From a virus, in IMG/VR virus record IMGVR_UViG_3300009320_000004, positions 1 to 64,000 of that record: a stretch of DNA of 64,000 bases. The stretch is one strand, 5' to 3'. A program made the position numbers and the translations under genes. The notes below the pieces were generated by a model. It was not told where the DNA came from. It ran no database searches and saw only the letters and a list, made by a program, of their open reading frames with translations. Positions 32,956 through 43,954 of the stretch are shown one piece after another; within the stretch, counting starts at the first letter, position 1; each line of letters starts with the position of its first letter.

Positions 32956-33695
32956 TGACTGCCCGTATTCTAGGAACCCTCTGTAAAAGAGGGCATGAGT
33001 CAGCCCCCGGCAGCGGGAAAAGTTGGCGCAGACTTGTACTCACAGGAGCCAAAGCCGGAACTCCCACGGAATGCTTGGAATGCAAAGCACTTACGGACAG
33101 AAGGTACAGGCAAACGGACAAATATAAGTTGCAATGCACCGCCTACAATAAGAAGTACGCTGCCACAGCAAGGGGCAGAGAGTTGCGAAAAGAGGGTACT
33201 GCCCGATACCTCAAATCGGAGAAATACCGCGCCACGAAAAAGGCTTGGAGGGACAAGCATCCTGAAACAGTAGCCGCTTCGCAACGCAGAGCTTGGGAAA
33301 AAATAAAAGGGAACCCCGAAAAGCGGACCCGAACCCTATTGCGTGTCGCATTCCATAACAGGATGAAAATCCTGTCGAAATCGGGGAAACGCCGCCCCGC
33401 CAAAGAATACGGGGTAGATTACGAAGCAATCTTTAACGAATTAGGTCCTCGTCCTTCTTCAGAGCATTGGCTGGACCACATCGTACCTGCGGGATACTTC
33501 GACCATGAGGATTCAGACCAAATTGCGATTTGCTGGTCCCCTGCGAATCTGAGGTGGATTCCCCGACAGGAGAACCAGAAAAAGAACGGCAAGCTGCCAG
33601 TGAGGTGGCCTACGGGTCTTCCCTTTATTCTTGGTACAGGACCCCTAGCCCGCGCCAACCCTGAAGGGGTACAGTGTTTGGCAGGTGGAGGCTGA
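32955..33695 (+). CDS. HNH homing endonuclease (free-standing)
   Basis: This is a 246-residue basic protein. The C-terminal HNH core is clear: DHIVPAGYF (His175), PANLRW (Asn198) and RQENQKKNGK (Asn207) form the H-N-N metal-binding and catalytic set. The N-terminus has two cysteine pairs (LCKRGH, CLECKALTD) typical of HNH nucleases with a small zinc-binding knuckle, followed by a long lysine/arginine-rich helical linker. The ATG overlaps the preceding stop (TGATG), and the stop lies inside the ribosome-binding region of the next gene. The coding sequence is clearly more AT-rich than the flanking structural genes, consistent with recent transfer as a homing gene. Confidence 0.9.
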   Translation: MTARILGTLCKRGHESAPGSGKSWRRLVLTGAKAGTPTECLECKALTDRRYRQTDKYKLQCTAYNKKYAATARGRELRKEGTARYLKSEKYRATKKAWRDKHPETVAASQRRAWEKIKGNPEKRTRTLLRVAFHNRMKILSKSGKRRPAKEYGVDYEAIFNELGPRPSSEHWLDHIVPAGYFDHEDSDQIAICWSPANLRWIPRQENQKKNGKLPVRWPTGLPFILGTGPLARANPEGVQCLAGGG

Positions 33696-33696
33696 C

Positions 33697-36600
33697 ATGA
33701 GCAAAGACCTTGGAAACGGCGTCTCCCGTACCCTCGATGCCGTTCATCGGCAGTTCGCAGGGATGGTGTTCCAGAAGGGAAAGCCTCCTCTCGACGCCGA
33801 GCTGAACCTCGCAGGGCAGGTGGACTGGGAGAACCAGCGGCAGGCGGTCCAGTCCATGATGCCGTCCGGGTTCTTCCTCGACCCAACGCGCCCCATGCAG
33901 GACTACCAGTTCGCGCAGGCGTGGTCCAATTACTTCACCCTCGGCAACCCCAAGACCCCCGTGGGAGTTCACGAGGGCGACCGGGAGTTCCCGGTGGTCT
34001 GGGCGAACGTCAACGGCTGGGTGTTCCCCATCGTCGGGACCGACGTGGACCACGAGGGCGACCTCCGCAACCTCGTCAAGCTGTACCCGCCCCCGGAGTC
34101 GGATGCCCGTATCGACCTCGTGTTCCTCGAAGCATGGCTCACGAACGTCGCACCGAACCCTTCGACCGTGAACAAGCCCGCCGTGGACAAGCTGTGGAAG
34201 TACGGCAACGTCCAGTACGGCGGGACGAATCTGGCGGATGACCTTGAAGACCCGACCATCGGGTTCGAGACGACCGAGCGCCTTCAGCTCCAATACAGAA
34301 TCCGGGTCTTCGGGTCCGGTGCCGGGCTGGGCGCGAGTGTGGCCCTCGACATCTATCCCGACGGACTGGGCGACCCCAACGTCCTCGGGCAGGGGACCGC
34401 GACTCTTCCGGTGGCTGGCCTCTACTACACGAACATGGGCAAGGAGCTGGGCGACCCGGCGCTGTGGCGTGCCGGTGACGGCGACCCGAACAACTCTCTC
34501 GGCACCTACGACGGTTACACCTACGCGACCCCCATTGCCGCCGTGTTCCGCCGCAACTCGAACGTCTACGTGGCCGTGACCCAGAGCGGCAACCCGAACC
34601 AGAACGGAGCCTTCGACCGCTCCCCCGGCACCAAGTACCTGCCGGACCCGCTCACCGGGTGCCGGACGCTCCTGACCGCGACGCTGACCTCGGACCTGAA
34701 CGACACCGACGGCGTGGCGGCCCTTGCGACCATCGACGTGACCAACCTGAACGGCTCCGGCTGGGAGGACGACAAGCACGTCCTCACGTCCTGCTTCATG
34801 GTCCTCGACGACGAAATCATCGGCATCGGGGCGGTGGACCTCATCGCCAACACCGTCACCATCCCCGCCGGGGGTCGTGGTCGGTACGCTTCTGCCGTGG
34901 GGGGTCATGCCGCCGGTACTCCCATCCTCTTCTACCAGCCGCGCCCGGACGGCCTGTACGCCGACCAGATTGCCGAGACGGACGTTCTCGACCTCCGGCG
35001 TGGTGCGAACGCCAACGACTGGGACTACACCCGCCTGCTGTCGCACAACGTGGCAGCCATCCTGCGCGGGGACCTGCACACCGCATGGAAACGCTCGGGA
35101 CCGGGCGATACCCAAGGCCCGGTGGTCCACGAGGTGGACTACCTGTTCGCGGACGGCTCGACCGCCGTACCGAACCACACCGAGGCACTCGACGGGCCGG
35201 ACGGCATCCGGCAGGTCTGGTCCGACGGGGCGGCCATTCAGCGCGACCTGACGCTGATGCTCGACAACGACGCGACGCAGGACCAGAACACGGTCGGCTT
35301 CACCAACAACACCTTCGACGCCACCTGCCAGTGGGACGTGGGGCCGGACTTCCGACCCAGCGGCTTCATGAACGTGGCCGGACTGGCATCCTCCAACGTC
35401 TGGACCAACGGCACGAGCATCTTCCTCTACATCGGGGGCGAGGATGGCTCCTCGGGCGCTCGTGGCACCTTCAGGGATGGTTCCGAGCGGGCTGTCCGGT
35501 TCCTGACCCCTCGGGAATACTGGAAGTCGGGATACCCCACTCTGGCACCGGACAACGGCGACCAGTACCCGTGGTCCATGCGCTTCGTCGATGACGGCGC
35601 TCTGGCCCCGGCGACCACCATGCGGGCCTTCGAGCCAGCTCCTCCCGGCCTCTCCGCCGCCGAGGCAGCCCGGCACGTCGGACCCATGTACCCGTGGCGG
35701 CACCTGTGGTTCGAGTACCCCTACGTGGTCCTCGGCGGACTCCTGCGGCCCGGACTCAAGCTCTCCGTGGCCGCCGCCGACCTCTCAGTCCATGCCAACC
35801 CGGCTTTCGTCGAGCTGGACACCGGCATCGACTTCGACGCGGCTGGGGTCTACTACTCCAAGGACGCCGCCGGGAACTTCGAGAACACCCCCGCCAACGT
35901 CTCGGCTCCCCTACTGCGGGACAGCCGGACTCTGTTCGGGATGCTGACAGCCGACGGGAAAGACCGCTCCGGTTACTCCTCCGAAGTCTACCTCGTCCTT
36001 TACGGCGACACTGTGGACAGGAACAACAACGGCGCGTTCCGTGTCGTGGGGGCAGGCACAGCCGCCTCCGGGTACACCGAGTACCGGGCCAGCAACGCGA
36101 CCTCCCTCGTCCTCGCCCCCTTGAGCGCGGACTTCACGGCCATCGACAACACGACCGGCGAAACCCTCGAATGCGAGTTCCGGTCGCAGGAACACAACGC
36201 CGACACGGCTTCCTCCCATGTCGGGGGTTCTTCCGACCTCTGCATCGTGATGACCGACCTCGGTGGCCAGTTGACCTCCGCATTGGCCGGACTCGACCCC
36301 GACCACCCGTGGAAGGCGGCGCACCTCGGTCACGGCGAAGCCTATGACCTTGAGATGCCGCTGGACGGCTCGGGCGTTCCCATCATCGAGAACAAGATGG
36401 TCCTGAACATGACCCTCCTCTACCATCCGGGCAGGGGAGGCACGGCCCGCGTCGCTGACGAGTTCGTCCGCTTTGCCATGAAGGGCGGCAGCACCACCCA
36501 GACGGTCAACGGATACCTGCGCCAGAACCGGGCAGCACTCGACACCACCTTCTCGGCCTTCTCCGGCATCCCGTCGGACGAGACATTCTGGGATGCCGTC

Positions 36601-39600
36601 CACATCCAGACGTGGAACCGGCTCCCCGCCGACGGCTGGCACGCCCCGGATGGCGCGGACATGGGCGGTGGGCTGGCGAGCTTCACCGAGACAACCCGCG
36701 AACATGAGCTGTTCATCGACCGAGGCAGCAAGACGGTCGTCTTCCGCCCCTTCAGGGACATGGAGATGACTCTCCACACCTTCTCCTTCGACGACGTGAT
36801 GGGCGGGACCGAGTGCCTGTTGGGCGGCTACAACTACCCGACGGGGGCGATGGCCGCCAAGGACGGCCTGCAAATCTTCACCGGCAGCGACACCTCCGGG
36901 AAGCAGATGGGCTTCGTGGTCCCGAGGGAGTTCATGCCCCGCTTCGGCAGGCAGGACATCCCCTATTTCAACAGGCTCGGCGCGACCGACCCGTTCTTGC
37001 CCGGAATCAACCACCTGTTCATCGACTCCGCCACCCTCACGAGGGGCGTGTTCAACATCATCGGCGGCTGGTCGAACCTCGGCTCCGGCCCCGAGGTCAA
37101 CCCGCTGTTCTTCACGACTGACGACCCAACCCACTACGGCGAGTCCGCCACGGTGGTCGGCACCGTGAACAACCATCCCCAGTACAAGGCCCGCAAGACG
37201 ACGGACATCGACGAGAACATCGCGCTGGCCCCCAACGTCATCGCGGACCTCGAAGCCGTCAACTCCGCCGACTTGGGCAAGGGGCTGAAGGGTATTCAGC
37301 TTCCTCCGTACCTCGGCATCGCCCGGCTCTACGGCGTGTATGACCTCCGCGACTGGGAAACCAAGGGCGGACGGACGTGGAAGACCAACCGCTACGAGGT
37401 GGAGGACGACCCGGCACCGAACCTGTTGAGGGACGACGCCACGCAGCAGACTCTCTTCATCTTGCAAGACGGAGCGCAAGACCTGACACAGGGGACGGGC
37501 GACCACACCTACATCGTCCCCTCGAACGTCATCGACATCACCCGCGCCCTTCAGTACGCGGACGGCGATGAGTTCGAGGACTACGACTACGTGGTCGAGG
37601 CGACCATCTTCGGCTTCGCCCATGGCTTCATCGACGAGAACAACTACGTCCTCGTGCGCCACTTCAACGGCGCAGGGACTCCTCCGAACATCGACGGCAC
37701 GGACATGGAAATCGAGGGCGTTCACATGGTCGTACCCACGGCTGCCGGGTACAACCACCAGTGCTACGCCGCCTACGACCGGACGGTCTATCAGGGCGAC
37801 CCCTACATGACCCGCTCCGGCGACGCCAAGACCAACTCCGACTACGAGCATCGCTATGGCCAGCTCGCCATGTCGCACCAGTGGGCCGTGGAGACGGTCA
37901 TCCAGCAGTACGACTCGAACGGCAACTTCGTCCCGGAAATTCCGAACGCCCGCGCCTTCGAGGTTCTGGCGACGATGGACTTCTACACCACGATGGGGAC
38001 CGGGAAAATCGGGGGCATCATGCGCCCCGGCACCTCCCTCGACATCGGGTACACCGAGATGCAGAGTGCCAACGGGCTGCCCGACTACCGCGCCCCGGAC
38101 GCGACGGACTCCCCGGCGTGGCGCATTCTGCCGAGGGCATACACCGAGGGGCAGGTGACGAACCCCAACCGGGCATCCATCGGTCTTCAGGGCTGGACAG
38201 AGGGGTGGAACCCGTCCGACACCCAATACCTCATCGTCCGCATCAACAAGCTCGACGGGACAGCCGTGGACCTCTACGCCTCGACCCCGGACAACGTGGC
38301 GGTCCTGACTGCTGCGCCCTACAACGTACCTGCGGGCAACATCTTCCTCGTGGACGAGTTCGGGAAACTGACGACCTACAAGGAGACGGTCAACATTGCC
38401 GGTCCCACAACTGTTGAGCCGGGCCAAGTTCTGATGGTGGGGACCGCCACGGGCGAACTGGCCAACGCGGCAGTCGGGGATGCCGTCATCGTCAACCCCC
38501 GTGTCGCAACGCTGGATGATATGTACTTCGTCGGGCGGGCCGGGGCCGGGGGTGTCAGCATCTACATGGTCAATCGTTGGGGCTGTGCCTTCGAGCAGGA
38601 GGTCAGCGTCTACGACTCCGTGTTCGACCAGAACTTCGACCTCAGTCTCATCTTCCCCGCTCCGGGCAACATTCCAGTCGGGTCTTCCGTGGTCGGGACC
38701 ACCACCATCACGGGAATCGGGGCCGAAGCCAACACGGCTCTCATCGTTGCAGACCCCCAGACGGGGACTCTGGCGGACGGTCTGGTGTTCACGGCATCCG
38801 TGACCAACCCCGGCACTGACGAAGTGACCCTCGTGGTTCACAACCTCACGAATGCGGCTGTAGTCAGCGCAGGGCGGCCAGACCAGACCTTCCACATTTG
38901 CATCCTGAAGGAGTCCGAACAGGCGACCCGACGGGTGAACTTGAACAACTACGACCTCGAAGTGACAGTCATTCACCGCGAGGAGAACATCGCGGGGACC
39001 ATGCGGAACCTCAACGACCTCATCTGGCAGCACCCGGACCTGTACCAGACGCTCTGGGGCGAGAACGATGCCGGGGATGCCAAGGTCACTCTCCGGGCTG
39101 TGCCGACAGGAGCCGAAGGCAACGGAATCTCGGTCGAGGTGCGGTCTGAAGGTGTGTTCCCGGACACGATGGCCCACTACATCACGGTCATGACCGAGTG
39201 GCCGAACCAGCTCCCGTACACCGGGCTGACCACCTTCGGCCACCTCCAAGGCGGAGAGGACATCCCGATGAACGGGGGTGAAGGCACGAGCCAACTCTCC
39301 CTCACGGGCATGACCGAACGTCTGCCCATGGGTGTCCTCTTGCAGGACAGCGACTTCATCTGTGAGAACCCGCTGCGGGACAACGCCACGGCGATGAACG
39401 CACGTCCGGCTGGCCCAAGGCCGGTCCAGACCCAGATACCGCTCACCACGGGCGGCGTGGAGTACACGCGCTCGATGGGCGAACCGGGCGAACTCATCGC
39501 GTTGGCCGACGGCTCTGTCTCGGTGTCCAGCTTCGCGGCGTGGACAGAGGCAACCCCGACGGGTTCGAGACGCTTCCGCATCTTCCGTGGAGGAGGCTCG

Positions 39601-40020
39601 GCCTACATTCTGTCCGGGGACAATCCCGGTGGACCCATCGACTGGGTGTCCGACACCTTCCCGGCGGCAAGCCTGCCCGTCCTCAAGGGCGGCGTGCTGG
39701 CCTGCCGGGCCATGCTGGTGCGGAACTTCTACGAGGAAGCGAACCCGGCGGGCGGACCCTACAAGGTGTCCGACGGCGACGAAATCCAGATGGTCGTTCT
39801 CACCTACGGGATTCTGGGACACCCCGGCGAGCAGGAGGACGGCATCCTCCTCCGGGGACTCATCGGGCCGTCAGGGTATGGCGAGGGGTACGCGGCGGCA
39901 GACCGCTACCGCATTGATGGACGGCCCATGGTTCGGGCTTTCACTCAGGAAACCCCGAACCCGGCCTTGGTTCAGGTCGCCCCTCACCCGAACGACCGCA
40001 GCCCTGAGAGGCGGGAATGA
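33697..40020 (+). CDS. Giant virion protein, paralogue of the 18094-21705 gene
   Basis: This is a 2107-residue protein. ATG 33697 was chosen over an in-frame GTG 12 bp upstream because GGTGGAGG lies between them. The N-terminal module (MVFQKGKPPLDAELNLAGQV, then LFLEAWLTNVAP-like text as FLEAWLTNVAPNP and LQLQYRIR) is shared with the 1203-residue protein. Later parts include beta-rich domains, one near residue 1800 with LRAVPTGAEGNGI and LQGGED resembling a domain in the paralogue. No catalytic motif is seen. It is likely a long fibre or tail-tip component. Its stop overlaps the next start (ATGA). Confidence 0.65.
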   Translation: MSKDLGNGVSRTLDAVHRQFAGMVFQKGKPPLDAELNLAGQVDWENQRQAVQSMMPSGFFLDPTRPMQDYQFAQAWSNYFTLGNPKTPVGVHEGDREFPVVWANVNGWVFPIVGTDVDHEGDLRNLVKLYPPPESDARIDLVFLEAWLTNVAPNPSTVNKPAVDKLWKYGNVQYGGTNLADDLEDPTIGFETTERLQLQYRIRVFGSGAGLGASVALDIYPDGLGDPNVLGQGTATLPVAGLYYTNMGKELGDPALWRAGDGDPNNSLGTYDGYTYATPIAAVFRRNSNVYVAVTQSGNPNQNGAFDRSPGTKYLPDPLTGCRTLLTATLTSDLNDTDGVAALATIDVTNLNGSGWEDDKHVLTSCFMVLDDEIIGIGAVDLIANTVTIPAGGRGRYASAVGGHAAGTPILFYQPRPDGLYADQIAETDVLDLRRGANANDWDYTRLLSHNVAAILRGDLHTAWKRSGPGDTQGPVVHEVDYLFADGSTAVPNHTEALDGPDGIRQVWSDGAAIQRDLTLMLDNDATQDQNTVGFTNNTFDATCQWDVGPDFRPSGFMNVAGLASSNVWTNGTSIFLYIGGEDGSSGARGTFRDGSERAVRFLTPREYWKSGYPTLAPDNGDQYPWSMRFVDDGALAPATTMRAFEPAPPGLSAAEAARHVGPMYPWRHLWFEYPYVVLGGLLRPGLKLSVAAADLSVHANPAFVELDTGIDFDAAGVYYSKDAAGNFENTPANVSAPLLRDSRTLFGMLTADGKDRSGYSSEVYLVLYGDTVDRNNNGAFRVVGAGTAASGYTEYRASNATSLVLAPLSADFTAIDNTTGETLECEFRSQEHNADTASSHVGGSSDLCIVMTDLGGQLTSALAGLDPDHPWKAAHLGHGEAYDLEMPLDGSGVPIIENKMVLNMTLLYHPGRGGTARVADEFVRFAMKGGSTTQTVNGYLRQNRAALDTTFSAFSGIPSDETFWDAVHIQTWNRLPADGWHAPDGADMGGGLASFTETTREHELFIDRGSKTVVFRPFRDMEMTLHTFSFDDVMGGTECLLGGYNYPTGAMAAKDGLQIFTGSDTSGKQMGFVVPREFMPRFGRQDIPYFNRLGATDPFLPGINHLFIDSATLTRGVFNIIGGWSNLGSGPEVNPLFFTTDDPTHYGESATVVGTVNNHPQYKARKTTDIDENIALAPNVIADLEAVNSADLGKGLKGIQLPPYLGIARLYGVYDLRDWETKGGRTWKTNRYEVEDDPAPNLLRDDATQQTLFILQDGAQDLTQGTGDHTYIVPSNVIDITRALQYADGDEFEDYDYVVEATIFGFAHGFIDENNYVLVRHFNGAGTPPNIDGTDMEIEGVHMVVPTAAGYNHQCYAAYDRTVYQGDPYMTRSGDAKTNSDYEHRYGQLAMSHQWAVETVIQQYDSNGNFVPEIPNARAFEVLATMDFYTTMGTGKIGGIMRPGTSLDIGYTEMQSANGLPDYRAPDATDSPAWRILPRAYTEGQVTNPNRASIGLQGWTEGWNPSDTQYLIVRINKLDGTAVDLYASTPDNVAVLTAAPYNVPAGNIFLVDEFGKLTTYKETVNIAGPTTVEPGQVLMVGTATGELANAAVGDAVIVNPRVATLDDMYFVGRAGAGGVSIYMVNRWGCAFEQEVSVYDSVFDQNFDLSLIFPAPGNIPVGSSVVGTTTITGIGAEANTALIVADPQTGTLADGLVFTASVTNPGTDEVTLVVHNLTNAAVVSAGRPDQTFHICILKESEQATRRVNLNNYDLEVTVIHREENIAGTMRNLNDLIWQHPDLYQTLWGENDAGDAKVTLRAVPTGAEGNGISVEVRSEGVFPDTMAHYITVMTEWPNQLPYTGLTTFGHLQGGEDIPMNGGEGTSQLSLTGMTERLPMGVLLQDSDFICENPLRDNATAMNARPAGPRPVQTQIPLTTGGVEYTRSMGEPGELIALADGSVSVSSFAAWTEATPTGSRRFRIFRGGGSAYILSGDNPGGPIDWVSDTFPAASLPVLKGGVLACRAMLVRNFYEEANPAGGPYKVSDGDEIQMVVLTYGILGHPGEQEDGILLRGLIGPSGYGEGYAAADRYRIDGRPMVRAFTQETPNPALVQVAPHPNDRSPERRE

Positions 40021-42431: not shown

Positions 42432-42463
42432 TTTCTACTCTGTAGAAAGCTCTCTAAGCCCCC
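42432..42463 (-). promoter_or_regulatory. GGGGGCTTAGAG element, copy D, with leader hairpin
   Basis: On the minus strand GGGGGCTTAGAG (42463-42452) is followed by the hairpin TTTCTAC-AGA-GTAGAAA (42448-42432) and then the TAGGAGG of the DUF6011-like gene. It overlaps the last codons and stop of the LAGLIDADG gene. No convincing -10 is present (CACAAAT), so this copy is weaker than A-C. Confidence 0.45.
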
Positions 42464-43094
42464 ATTTGTGGGCCATGCAGGTTGGTTCAAGATAGGGGTG
42501 TGTGATGGACAGGAACTTCTCGGCTTCACCTTTTGACATCCAAATCCCTTTGTAAGGGGATTTCGGTTTTCGCTTGTTGGGCTGTTTCCAGATATGTGCC
42601 TCAATCTCAAAACGCTCTTGTAGCATGGTTATCAAGGCTTTGTTTTCTTTCGGGGTGAATGAGAAGGACGCGATTCGGATGAGCTTGTAGACGGTGCCAT
42701 CTTTGTTCAATTTAGTCAGAAATGACCCATCATCCATGTACCAGATAGCGAGAGCCAAAGGTCCGACTTGGGAAATCAGTTCCGGCGGGACGATTTTCTT
42801 CTTGGCCGGGACTGCCAGAGAAGCCCATTCTGTGAGGTGCGGGTGCCTCACTGTTCTGACTCGTACCCGTTCCGTTGGGTGGTCTACTTTTGAAACTAGG
42901 GGGCCGAGTAGGTTGGCTTTGTGCAGGGCATAAGGTTCTTGTTTCAGGCCGTGCTTAATACCCAATCCCCAATTCAGGCTTCCGGGAGGAGGTCTTTCAA
43001 GATGCCCGTCTCCCAAGATGGACCCCATTATCACTTGGTCCATTGCCGGGGAGACGACGATTTTGGCATTTGCTTCCATGGGGAAGCGGCCCAC
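42435..43094 (-). CDS. LAGLIDADG homing endonuclease (free-standing)
   Basis: This is a 219-residue protein from GTG 43094; an ATG five codons later is an alternative, and neither has a strong Shine-Dalgarno. Two LAGLIDADG motifs are visible: QVIMGSILGDGHLE near residues 20-33 and LALAIWYMDDGSF near 115-127, with a catalytic acid (D) at the end of each. That makes it a single-chain pseudo-dimeric enzyme. Basic C-terminal text (KQPNKRKPKSPYKG) fits DNA contacts. It sits between a methyltransferase and a zinc-finger gene, and its last codons are shared with the promoter-like element of the following gene. It is AT-rich compared with the tail genes. Confidence 0.85.
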   Translation of the reverse strand: MGRFPMEANAKIVVSPAMDQVIMGSILGDGHLERPPPGSLNWGLGIKHGLKQEPYALHKANLLGPLVSKVDHPTERVRVRTVRHPHLTEWASLAVPAKKKIVPPELISQVGPLALAIWYMDDGSFLTKLNKDGTVYKLIRIASFSFTPKENKALITMLQERFEIEAHIWKQPNKRKPKSPYKGIWMSKGEAEKFLSITHPYLEPTCMAHKWGLRELSTE

Positions 43095-43109: not shown

Positions 43110-43919
43110 CTAAATACATCTCAGTATTTCGTAAGCAACCTGTGGGACTATCGCATTTCCGTAGCCGCTAATTTCGCCCATCCTGCCGGGTACATCATCA
43201 GTAATCCGATCCATTCTGGGTTCAGGTACCCATCCTTCTCGTCCAAGAAAGCGGCCTGATTCCGCAGGCGGCAACTGCTTGTATGTTTCTCCTGCAAATA
43301 CTTTACCCAAGCTCTCTGTGATCCTTGCCGCTTCGCATCCTCCACCGTCGGAGTTTGCAATAATCCACGTTCTTTCCCGTTGATGTGAGGCACCAACGCA
43401 GGCTGCTGATATAATATGCCATTCCGCATCGAACCCGAGCGTCCATAAATCTTGCAGGATGGACGCAAGCCCATTACCTCGCAGGGAGCTGGCATTTTCA
43501 ATAATGACCCATTTTGGCCGAACTTCTCCAATAACTCTGAACATTTCCGACCAAAGACTGGATCTATGCCCAGACAAGCCCGCTCCGGTCCCGGCTCTGC
43601 TAATGTTTTGACATGGGAATCCCCCTGTGATGATGCCAATCCCTTCATATTTGCTCCCTTCTAATTCTCTAATGTCTTTGTGTATCGGTATGCCCGGAAA
43701 GTTCTTGCTTAATACCCTCCTGGAAAAATCTTCTATCTCACAAAACGCCACAGTTTTAAGCCCTGCCCATCTTGCAGCAAGAGCAAAGCCACCAATACCA
43801 CTAAATAAATCTAGGTGGGTTCTGGCTTGGGTGCTACGACTCCCAACAAGACGTTCAACGCCGACTGGCGAGCAGTTGCGATCTTTTGGTGCGCTATCAA
43901 AAAGTAGTAGTTGTTTCAT
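43110..43919 (-). CDS. DNA cytosine-5 methyltransferase
   Basis: This 269-residue protein starts at ATG 43919 with GAGGAG just upstream; a GTG at 43928 has no ribosome-binding site. The conserved C5-methyltransferase motifs are in order: I (LDLFSGIGGF, 36-45), IV (GGFPCQNIS, with catalytic Cys103), VI (ENAS, 141-144), VIII (QRER, 180-183) and X (GYGNAIVPQVAYEIL) at the C-terminus. The target-recognition region is short. It would protect phage DNA from restriction or modify it for regulation. Two thirds of it overlaps a second plausible coding frame (43148-43648). It is AT-richer than the structural genes and lies in the accessory block next to the LAGLIDADG gene. Confidence 0.95.
   Translation of the reverse strand: MKQLLLFDSAPKDRNCSPVGVERLVGSRSTQARTHLDLFSGIGGFALAARWAGLKTVAFCEIEDFSRRVLSKNFPGIPIHKDIRELEGSKYEGIGIITGGFPCQNISRAGTGAGLSGHRSSLWSEMFRVIGEVRPKWVIIENASSLRGNGLASILQDLWTLGFDAEWHIISAACVGASHQRERTWIIANSDGGGCEAARITESLGKVFAGETYKQLPPAESGRFLGREGWVPEPRMDRITDDVPGRMGEISGYGNAIVPQVAYEILRCI
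43148..43648 (-). CDS. Overprinted ORF inside the methyltransferase gene
   Basis: This is a 166-residue frame shifted +1 relative to the methyltransferase and running the same way over its residues 91-257. It starts at ATG with GAAGGGAG five bases upstream. Its sequence (SQGDSHVKTLAEPG; IYGRSGSMRNGILYQQP; GLLQTPTVEDAK; LNPEWIGLLMMYPAGWAKL) resembles a phage protein family I remember as separate small genes beside C5 methyltransferases, with MRNG..Y.LP, LPTP and NPxWVEWLMGxPxGWTxL motifs. Either both frames are translated, or the remembered family reflects the same frame of related methyltransferase genes being annotated. Confidence 0.45.
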   Translation of the reverse strand: MKGLASSQGDSHVKTLAEPGPERACLGIDPVFGRKCSELLEKFGQNGSLLKMPAPCEVMGLRPSCKIYGRSGSMRNGILYQQPALVPHINGKERGLLQTPTVEDAKRQGSQRAWVKYLQEKHTSSCRLRNQAAFLDEKDGYLNPEWIGLLMMYPAGWAKLAATEMR

Positions 43920-43954
43920 GCTCCTCACTTCGGGCGTTGGCCAGCGGGTTAACT

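Follow-up and report, generated by a model that had tools for sequence, protein, structure and literature searches.

A C5-cytosine DNA methyltransferase gene on a virus contig raises the question of whether a second protein is encoded in another frame of the same gene and, if so, what that protein would be. The gene lies in the window, which is the whole 64,000-nucleotide stretch analysed here and was taken from a virus record of 122,781 bases (IMG/VR record IMGVR_UViG_3300009320_000004, positions 1 to 64,000). The initial annotation had described a 166-codon open reading frame (ORF) starting with ATG at 43148-43648, in the +1 frame relative to the methyltransferase, and had suggested either true dual coding or a phage protein family, found next to such methyltransferases, that originated by overprinting one. 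Below, the methyltransferase polypeptide is called alpha and the product of the +1 frame beta.

Arrangement of the two reading frames

Coordinates and frame of the 166-codon ORF were found to be right; the strand, which had been left unstated, is minus (Table 1). The Shine-Dalgarno-like sequence reported five bases upstream of the beta ATG is present. The overlap spans residues 94-260 of the full-length alpha ORF, which agrees with the residues 91-257 given earlier if counting starts at Met4. As had been described, GDSHVKTLA results when motif IV (GGFPCQNIS) is read in the +1 frame; reading across GRMGEISG, immediately ahead of GYGNAI, in that frame gives GWAKL. The DNA of alpha motif IV (GGFPCQ) is shared with the start of beta, which is read in the other frame.

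Alpha matched phrog_363 (5.8e-68) and, over residues 39-194 only, PF00145 (Pfam, E=1.4e-37). The PF00145-type motifs I, IV (PC), VI (EN) and VIII (QxRxR-like) were present, and P105, C106, E144, N145, R184 and R186 were conserved in the alpha alignment. Beta matched phrog_1008 (3e-12).

A gene for a LAGLIDADG endonuclease (42435-43094, minus strand; PF03161, 1.7e-25) starts 15 bases past the methyltransferase stop and is possibly a homing gene parked beside the methyltransferase. Elsewhere in the window, a 2111-aa ORF (33685-40020, plus strand) showed no match in Pfam.

Table 1. Features of the overlapping alpha and beta frames, in window coordinates
Feature	Position	Strand	Description	Basis
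Alpha	43110..43928	minus	C5-cytosine methyltransferase large polypeptide, 272 aa	GTG start, ATG = residue 4; motifs I-VIII and X
Beta	43148..43648	minus	166-aa second protein, +1 frame of alpha; predicted small subunit	phrog_1008, shuffles, homologues
Beta start codon	43646..43648	minus	ATG	sequence; SD-preceded +1 ATG in relatives
Shine-Dalgarno-like sequence	43654..43661	minus	GAAGGGAG, 5 nt before beta ATG	sequence
Alpha motif I	43788..43811	minus	DLFSGIGG	alignment columns invariant or nearly invariant
Alpha motif IV	43608..43625	minus	GGFPCQ, catalytic Pro-Cys	P105, C106 invariant in 40 sequences
Alpha motif VIII	43365..43385	minus	HQRERTW	H182, R184, R186 invariant
Beta variable region	43229..43357	minus	target-recognition-like, beta residues 98-140	beta-frame substitution pattern VIII-IX
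Beta motif IX	43169..43228	minus	YLNPEWIGLLMMYPAGWAKL	hhalign; beta alignment columns; variants L154, L159, L175; alpha pLDDT
Alpha motif X	43134..43166	minus	GYGNAIVPQVA, partly downstream of beta	G257, N258, P262 nearly invariant

Comparison of the window gene with shuffled genes

Many shadow ORFs of 100-200 aa were found in the same stretch of the window, and the length of beta is therefore no evidence by itself. For this reason the alpha protein was held constant and its synonymous codons were permuted, so that the null tests beta. No +1 stops were seen in the window gene compared to about 5.9 expected, and only one of 20,000 synonymous shuffles was open in +1. Against a beta profile made without the window sequence, the window beta scored 167 bits, which was higher than all of 1,000 shuffles scored on the same profile (77.5 ± 11.5 bits, maximum 118.6). 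The +1 ORF of the window gene is thus not a chance open frame.

Relatives in phages and bacteria

A tblastn search of beta against phage records returned 54 records with 28-59% identity. In most of the 12 phage records that were opened, the match was the +1 frame of an annotated C5-methyltransferase, and in 3 of them the annotated gene was the beta frame itself. The opened records were annotated with only one of the two proteins, usually alpha and sometimes beta. The beta frame is annotated as a hypothetical protein in accession nos. MG592659, NC_028910 and PP395640; relatives annotate alpha as methyltransferase.

The scan of IMG/VR used a pattern taken from alpha motif IV only and was therefore blind to beta; all 80 loci obtained carried beta in the +1 frame. 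Overall, a beta homologue was found in +1 in 137 of 137 related loci, and among viruses beta was present in all alpha relatives of the same class examined. The phage family pointed to in the initial annotation corresponds to phrog_1008, which was matched by 40 of 40 aligned betas (best E 6.3e-62), and in every locus examined it was the +1 product of the methyltransferase gene. Dual coding was thus upheld, and the choice between dual coding and an overprinted family was not, as both hold together.

In the overlap of 120 distinct genes, 20 stops were observed in +1 compared to 533 expected from synonymous shuffling, and 111 of the genes were fully open in +1 (3.4 expected). No depletion was found in the +2 frame of the overlap (1196 stops, 1206 expected) or in the +1 frame upstream of the overlap (450 stops, 371 expected). 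Besides, 78 genes left out of the building of the beta profile were scored against it together with 20 synonymous shuffles of each, and all 78 scored higher than all of their own shuffles (median 163.8 vs 73.0 bits).

Among bacterial genes, the 46 tested ones with a strong beta contained a single +1 stop (121 expected), and 28 without a strong beta, including monomeric C5-methyltransferases with an in-frame motif IX, contained 88 (119 expected); this grouping was partly conditioned on openness, whereas the viral scan was not so conditioned. Bacterial carriers, as named in the records, included Bacteroidota, Bacillota, Actinomycetota, Pseudomonadota, and Spirochaetota. In the reverse control with shuffled beta codons, 0 alpha stops were found compared to 342 expected, a count that presupposes alpha, which was identified as an open frame in the first place. 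No beta lacking an overlapping alpha was found in the loci examined, which were mostly fetched by alpha. Together these comparisons indicate that both frames are protein-coding and under selection, and that the two-frame arrangement is real, ancient and common to many phages and bacteria.

Substitution patterns along the gene

Because the frames are offset by +1, the first, second and third positions of alpha codons are positions 3, 1 and 2, respectively, of beta codons. Differences per alpha codon position were counted in close pairs, which were few and not independent. Upstream of the overlap they followed an alpha pattern (.027/.003/.146), between motifs IV and VIII both frames were constrained (.014/.001/.034), between motifs VIII and IX a beta pattern was seen with beta as the main frame (.113/.038/.036), and at motif X the pattern was again that of alpha (.055/.027/.107). 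The proportion of synonymously changed codons in the close pairs was 0.038 in IV-VIII and 0.022 in VIII-IX compared to 0.141 upstream. The absence of family matches, stop codons in the alternate frame of close relatives, and normal synonymous variation across the overlap had been named beforehand as outcomes that would speak against the second protein. None of the three came true, since the 166-residue translation has family matches in phrog_1008, alternate-frame stops in relatives are strongly depleted, and synonymous variation over the overlap is depressed.

Pairwise comparisons of 11 disjoint pairs with at least 75% nucleotide identity in VIII-IX, and hence with homologous recognition regions, showed 20.7% differing residues in alpha and 9.4% in beta within that region, and 7.8% in alpha and 27.4% in beta upstream. 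In pairs with unrelated recognition regions the three codon positions were equally saturated and therefore uninformative. A recognition-type module (DNRDRGN...) detected in 9 divergent loci showed 55.7% identity in the beta frame vs 17.1% in the alpha frame, seed residues excluded. The window gene and its counterpart in phage record MW202483 shared 20 of 34 residues in beta and 12 of 34 in alpha, with 22/11/8 differences at the three codon positions. Across the variable region of beta (Table 1), alpha is a weakly constrained spacer. These patterns indicate that between motifs VIII and IX it is the beta frame, and not the alpha frame, that shows a normal coding substitution pattern.

Motif IX and structure models

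In C5-methyltransferases, motifs I-VIII are followed by the recognition domain and motif IX, and then by motif X. Alpha was found to contain motifs I-VIII and X, and motif IX was absent. The C-terminus of beta, LNPEWIGLLMMYPAGW, corresponds to C5-methyltransferase motif IX; the beta family consensus at this place is GxLNPxxVEWLMGFPxGWT, and in the beta alignment M151 was invariant and G152 and P154 nearly invariant. With hhalign, the stretch was placed exactly on motif IX of monomeric C5-methyltransferases as the best match (P = 0.0012 and 0.0002; probabilities of 20% and 48%, the motif being short). The alignments indicate that beta carries motif IX; the initial annotation did not recognise the C-terminal NPxWVEWLMGxPxGW as this motif.

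A search of the beta profile against Pfam, NCBIfam and PDB sequences gave no useful relatives, beta had no PF00145 match, and its N-terminal half had no known relative outside its own family. The label 'DNA methyltransferase' that phrog_1008 has in PHROGs v4 is an annotation; beta is unlike any C5-methyltransferase catalytic domain.

The AlphaFold2 (AF2) model of alpha showed a confident catalytic domain, with pLDDT exceeding 90 for most of the stretch 50-190. The segment immediately preceding motif X (residues 220-253) had pLDDT below 50, and residues 254-271 were modelled as confident helices. Foldseek aligned the alpha model best with M.HhaI, over about 170 columns, in keeping with the large domain alone. 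As modelled, alpha is without a small domain and is predicted to be disordered where motif IX would be. Beta alone was modelled poorly (AF2, pLDDT 58.8).

Beta ends in the motif IX that alpha lacks; between VIII and X, substitutions follow the beta frame and the alpha chain is predicted to be disordered. Target recognition and motif IX are therefore most likely contributed by beta, and motifs I-VIII and X by alpha. A C-terminus formed by motif IX also makes beta most likely a subunit of the same enzyme and not an unrelated protein, and alpha and beta would most likely form one heterodimeric enzyme.

Proposed mechanism and alternative explanations

We propose, with a probability of roughly 0.87, that the gene encodes a split C5-cytosine DNA methyltransferase in which a catalytic alpha and a beta made from an internal +1 start, carrying the recognition region and motif IX, are assembled into one enzyme. 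Alpha would be translated from the start of the gene, and beta from an internal start preceded by a separate Shine-Dalgarno sequence. In the putative heterodimer, alpha would catalyse and beta would bring the recognition region and motif IX; the enzyme would methylate cytosine within one particular sequence in the DNA of the phage, which would most likely protect that DNA from host restriction. An ATG in +1 preceded by a Shine-Dalgarno sequence was found in 62 of 130 relatives compared to 26 by chance. This count supports internal initiation, although not as universal in the simple Shine-Dalgarno-ATG form, and the mechanism by which beta is started may therefore vary. As to history, an ordinary monomeric enzyme may have had its C-terminal half shifted out of frame; the part of beta that covers motifs IV-VIII and the spacer of alpha from VIII to X would then be mutual overprints. 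It also seems probable that such reciprocal overprinting underlies a large class of C5-methyltransferases, of ancient origin, in phages and bacteria. One frame would code for the catalytic half and +1 for the recognition domain with motif IX; recognition modules would evolve and be swapped in +1, and the first frame would be kept open as a spacer.

It could be argued that the +1 ORF is open and conserved as a by-product of codon bias and of the conservation of the methyltransferase protein. Long shadow ORFs are indeed common in the window, some +1 similarity does follow from alpha conservation, as the shuffles still reached a median of 73 bits, and monomeric C5-methyltransferases gave weak +1 matches of 34-40 bits. 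However, +1 stops were little depleted in genes without a strong beta, mostly monomeric C5-methyltransferases (88 vs 119 expected), but nearly missing in genes of the beta class (1 vs 121), and the synonymous-shuffle nulls and the beta-frame codon pattern in VIII-IX also go against such a by-product. A chance open frame is hardly credible and was rejected on the frame-specific stop depletion, the codon-position pattern and the shuffle tests.

An improbable alternative is that a programmed +1 ribosomal frameshift after motif VIII would give a single chain containing I-VIII, the recognition region and motif IX. The missing motif IX is at the right place in the beta frame for this, the shifted product would resemble a C5-methyltransferase without motif X, and the beta frame even contains motif X in three relatives (L154, L159 and L175). 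A frameshift would, however, need the beta frame only past the slip site, yet stops in it were avoided across motifs IV-VIII (12 vs 327 expected), residues such as SSWRTSQ and SGMMRNG were conserved in beta across the same region, and the window gene has an ATG with a good Shine-Dalgarno sequence. Conservation and openness of beta well before any useful slip site thus make frameshifting less likely than internal initiation. Beta could also be real and yet not a subunit, being instead an independent protein, with a regulatory or anti-restriction function, that was overprinted on the gene, as its N-terminal half without known relatives outside the family would allow. We regard this as very improbable, given that beta ends in motif IX, that alpha has neither motif IX nor a folded recognition domain, that motif IX or X moves between the frames in some relatives, and that beta never occurred without an overlapping alpha in the loci examined (mostly fetched by alpha).

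Comparison with known systems

Arguments for long same-strand dual coding in prokaryotes usually rest on individual cases. The class described here comprises more than a hundred divergent genes, in phages and many bacterial groups, and its frame-specific signal is clear. All of this evidence is comparative or computational. If alpha is cloned alone, it may prove inactive and specificity may be mis-assigned.

In M.EcoHK31I, the small ORF is reportedly nested within the large one, in +1, and in this respect the window gene is arranged alike. M.EcoHK31I, a published precedent that the initial annotation overlooked, is a two-polypeptide C5-methyltransferase (YGGCCR) for which both polypeptides are needed (Lee et al., 1995, NAR 23:103, cited in PMC3404938). 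According to PMC3404938, its small polypeptide carries motif IX and its large one motifs I-VIII and X and a predicted recognition domain. The window gene shares with this description a large subunit with I-VIII and X but without IX, and a small polypeptide carrying motif IX. It differs in the location of the recognition domain, which for M.EcoHK31I is placed in the large subunit, as a literature prediction and not a proven or defining trait; the frame-resolved evidence for the window gene points instead to beta. Judged by the features compared, the window gene would work like M.EcoHK31I, a known enzyme type.

M.AquI is another two-polypeptide C5-methyltransferase (CYCGRG), described in PMC3404938 as split within the recognition region, with I-VIII in the large subunit and part of the recognition region and IX-X in the small one. 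Compared to that description, the window gene differs in having motif X in alpha and in that alpha overlaps beta over the whole length of beta; nearest to M.AquI are the variants with IX-X in beta (L154, L159 and L175). A hidden HNH endonuclease, the ShiLan domain, is likewise encoded as a second protein by a phage methylase gene read in an alternate frame (PMC11855218). It was set aside as a different phenomenon, since it is a homing insertion with its own endonuclease, whereas beta overlaps the methylase core and is most likely part of the enzyme. In the literature searched, which lacked most subscription journals, the breadth of the class, a recognition domain in beta, and variants whose motif IX or X lies in the other frame appear to be unreported.

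Variants among relatives

In the bacterial genomes of L154, L159 and L175, alpha stops right after motif VIII, and beta reads continuously through the recognition region, IX and X; judged from the sequences, these represent an alternative split of the same class. In one further relative (L090, 1483-2535), motif IX was found in the alpha frame, joined directly to motif X, and the beta frame ends before IX. This variant is possibly a reversion or an intermediate, or it may be an assembly error.

Homologues were also present in E. coli prophages (L218, 3935-4696, and L219). Both frames were interrupted at the same place in the E. coli prophage PCP07014, and E. coli PT62 contained two dual-frame methyltransferases close together; the PT62 prophage homologue at 3923-4660 of L219 is open in both frames. 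In Mycobacterium phage Llama (L002, 2133-2892), both alpha and beta are broken by a frameshift, and the gene is annotated as two adjacent DNA methylase genes.
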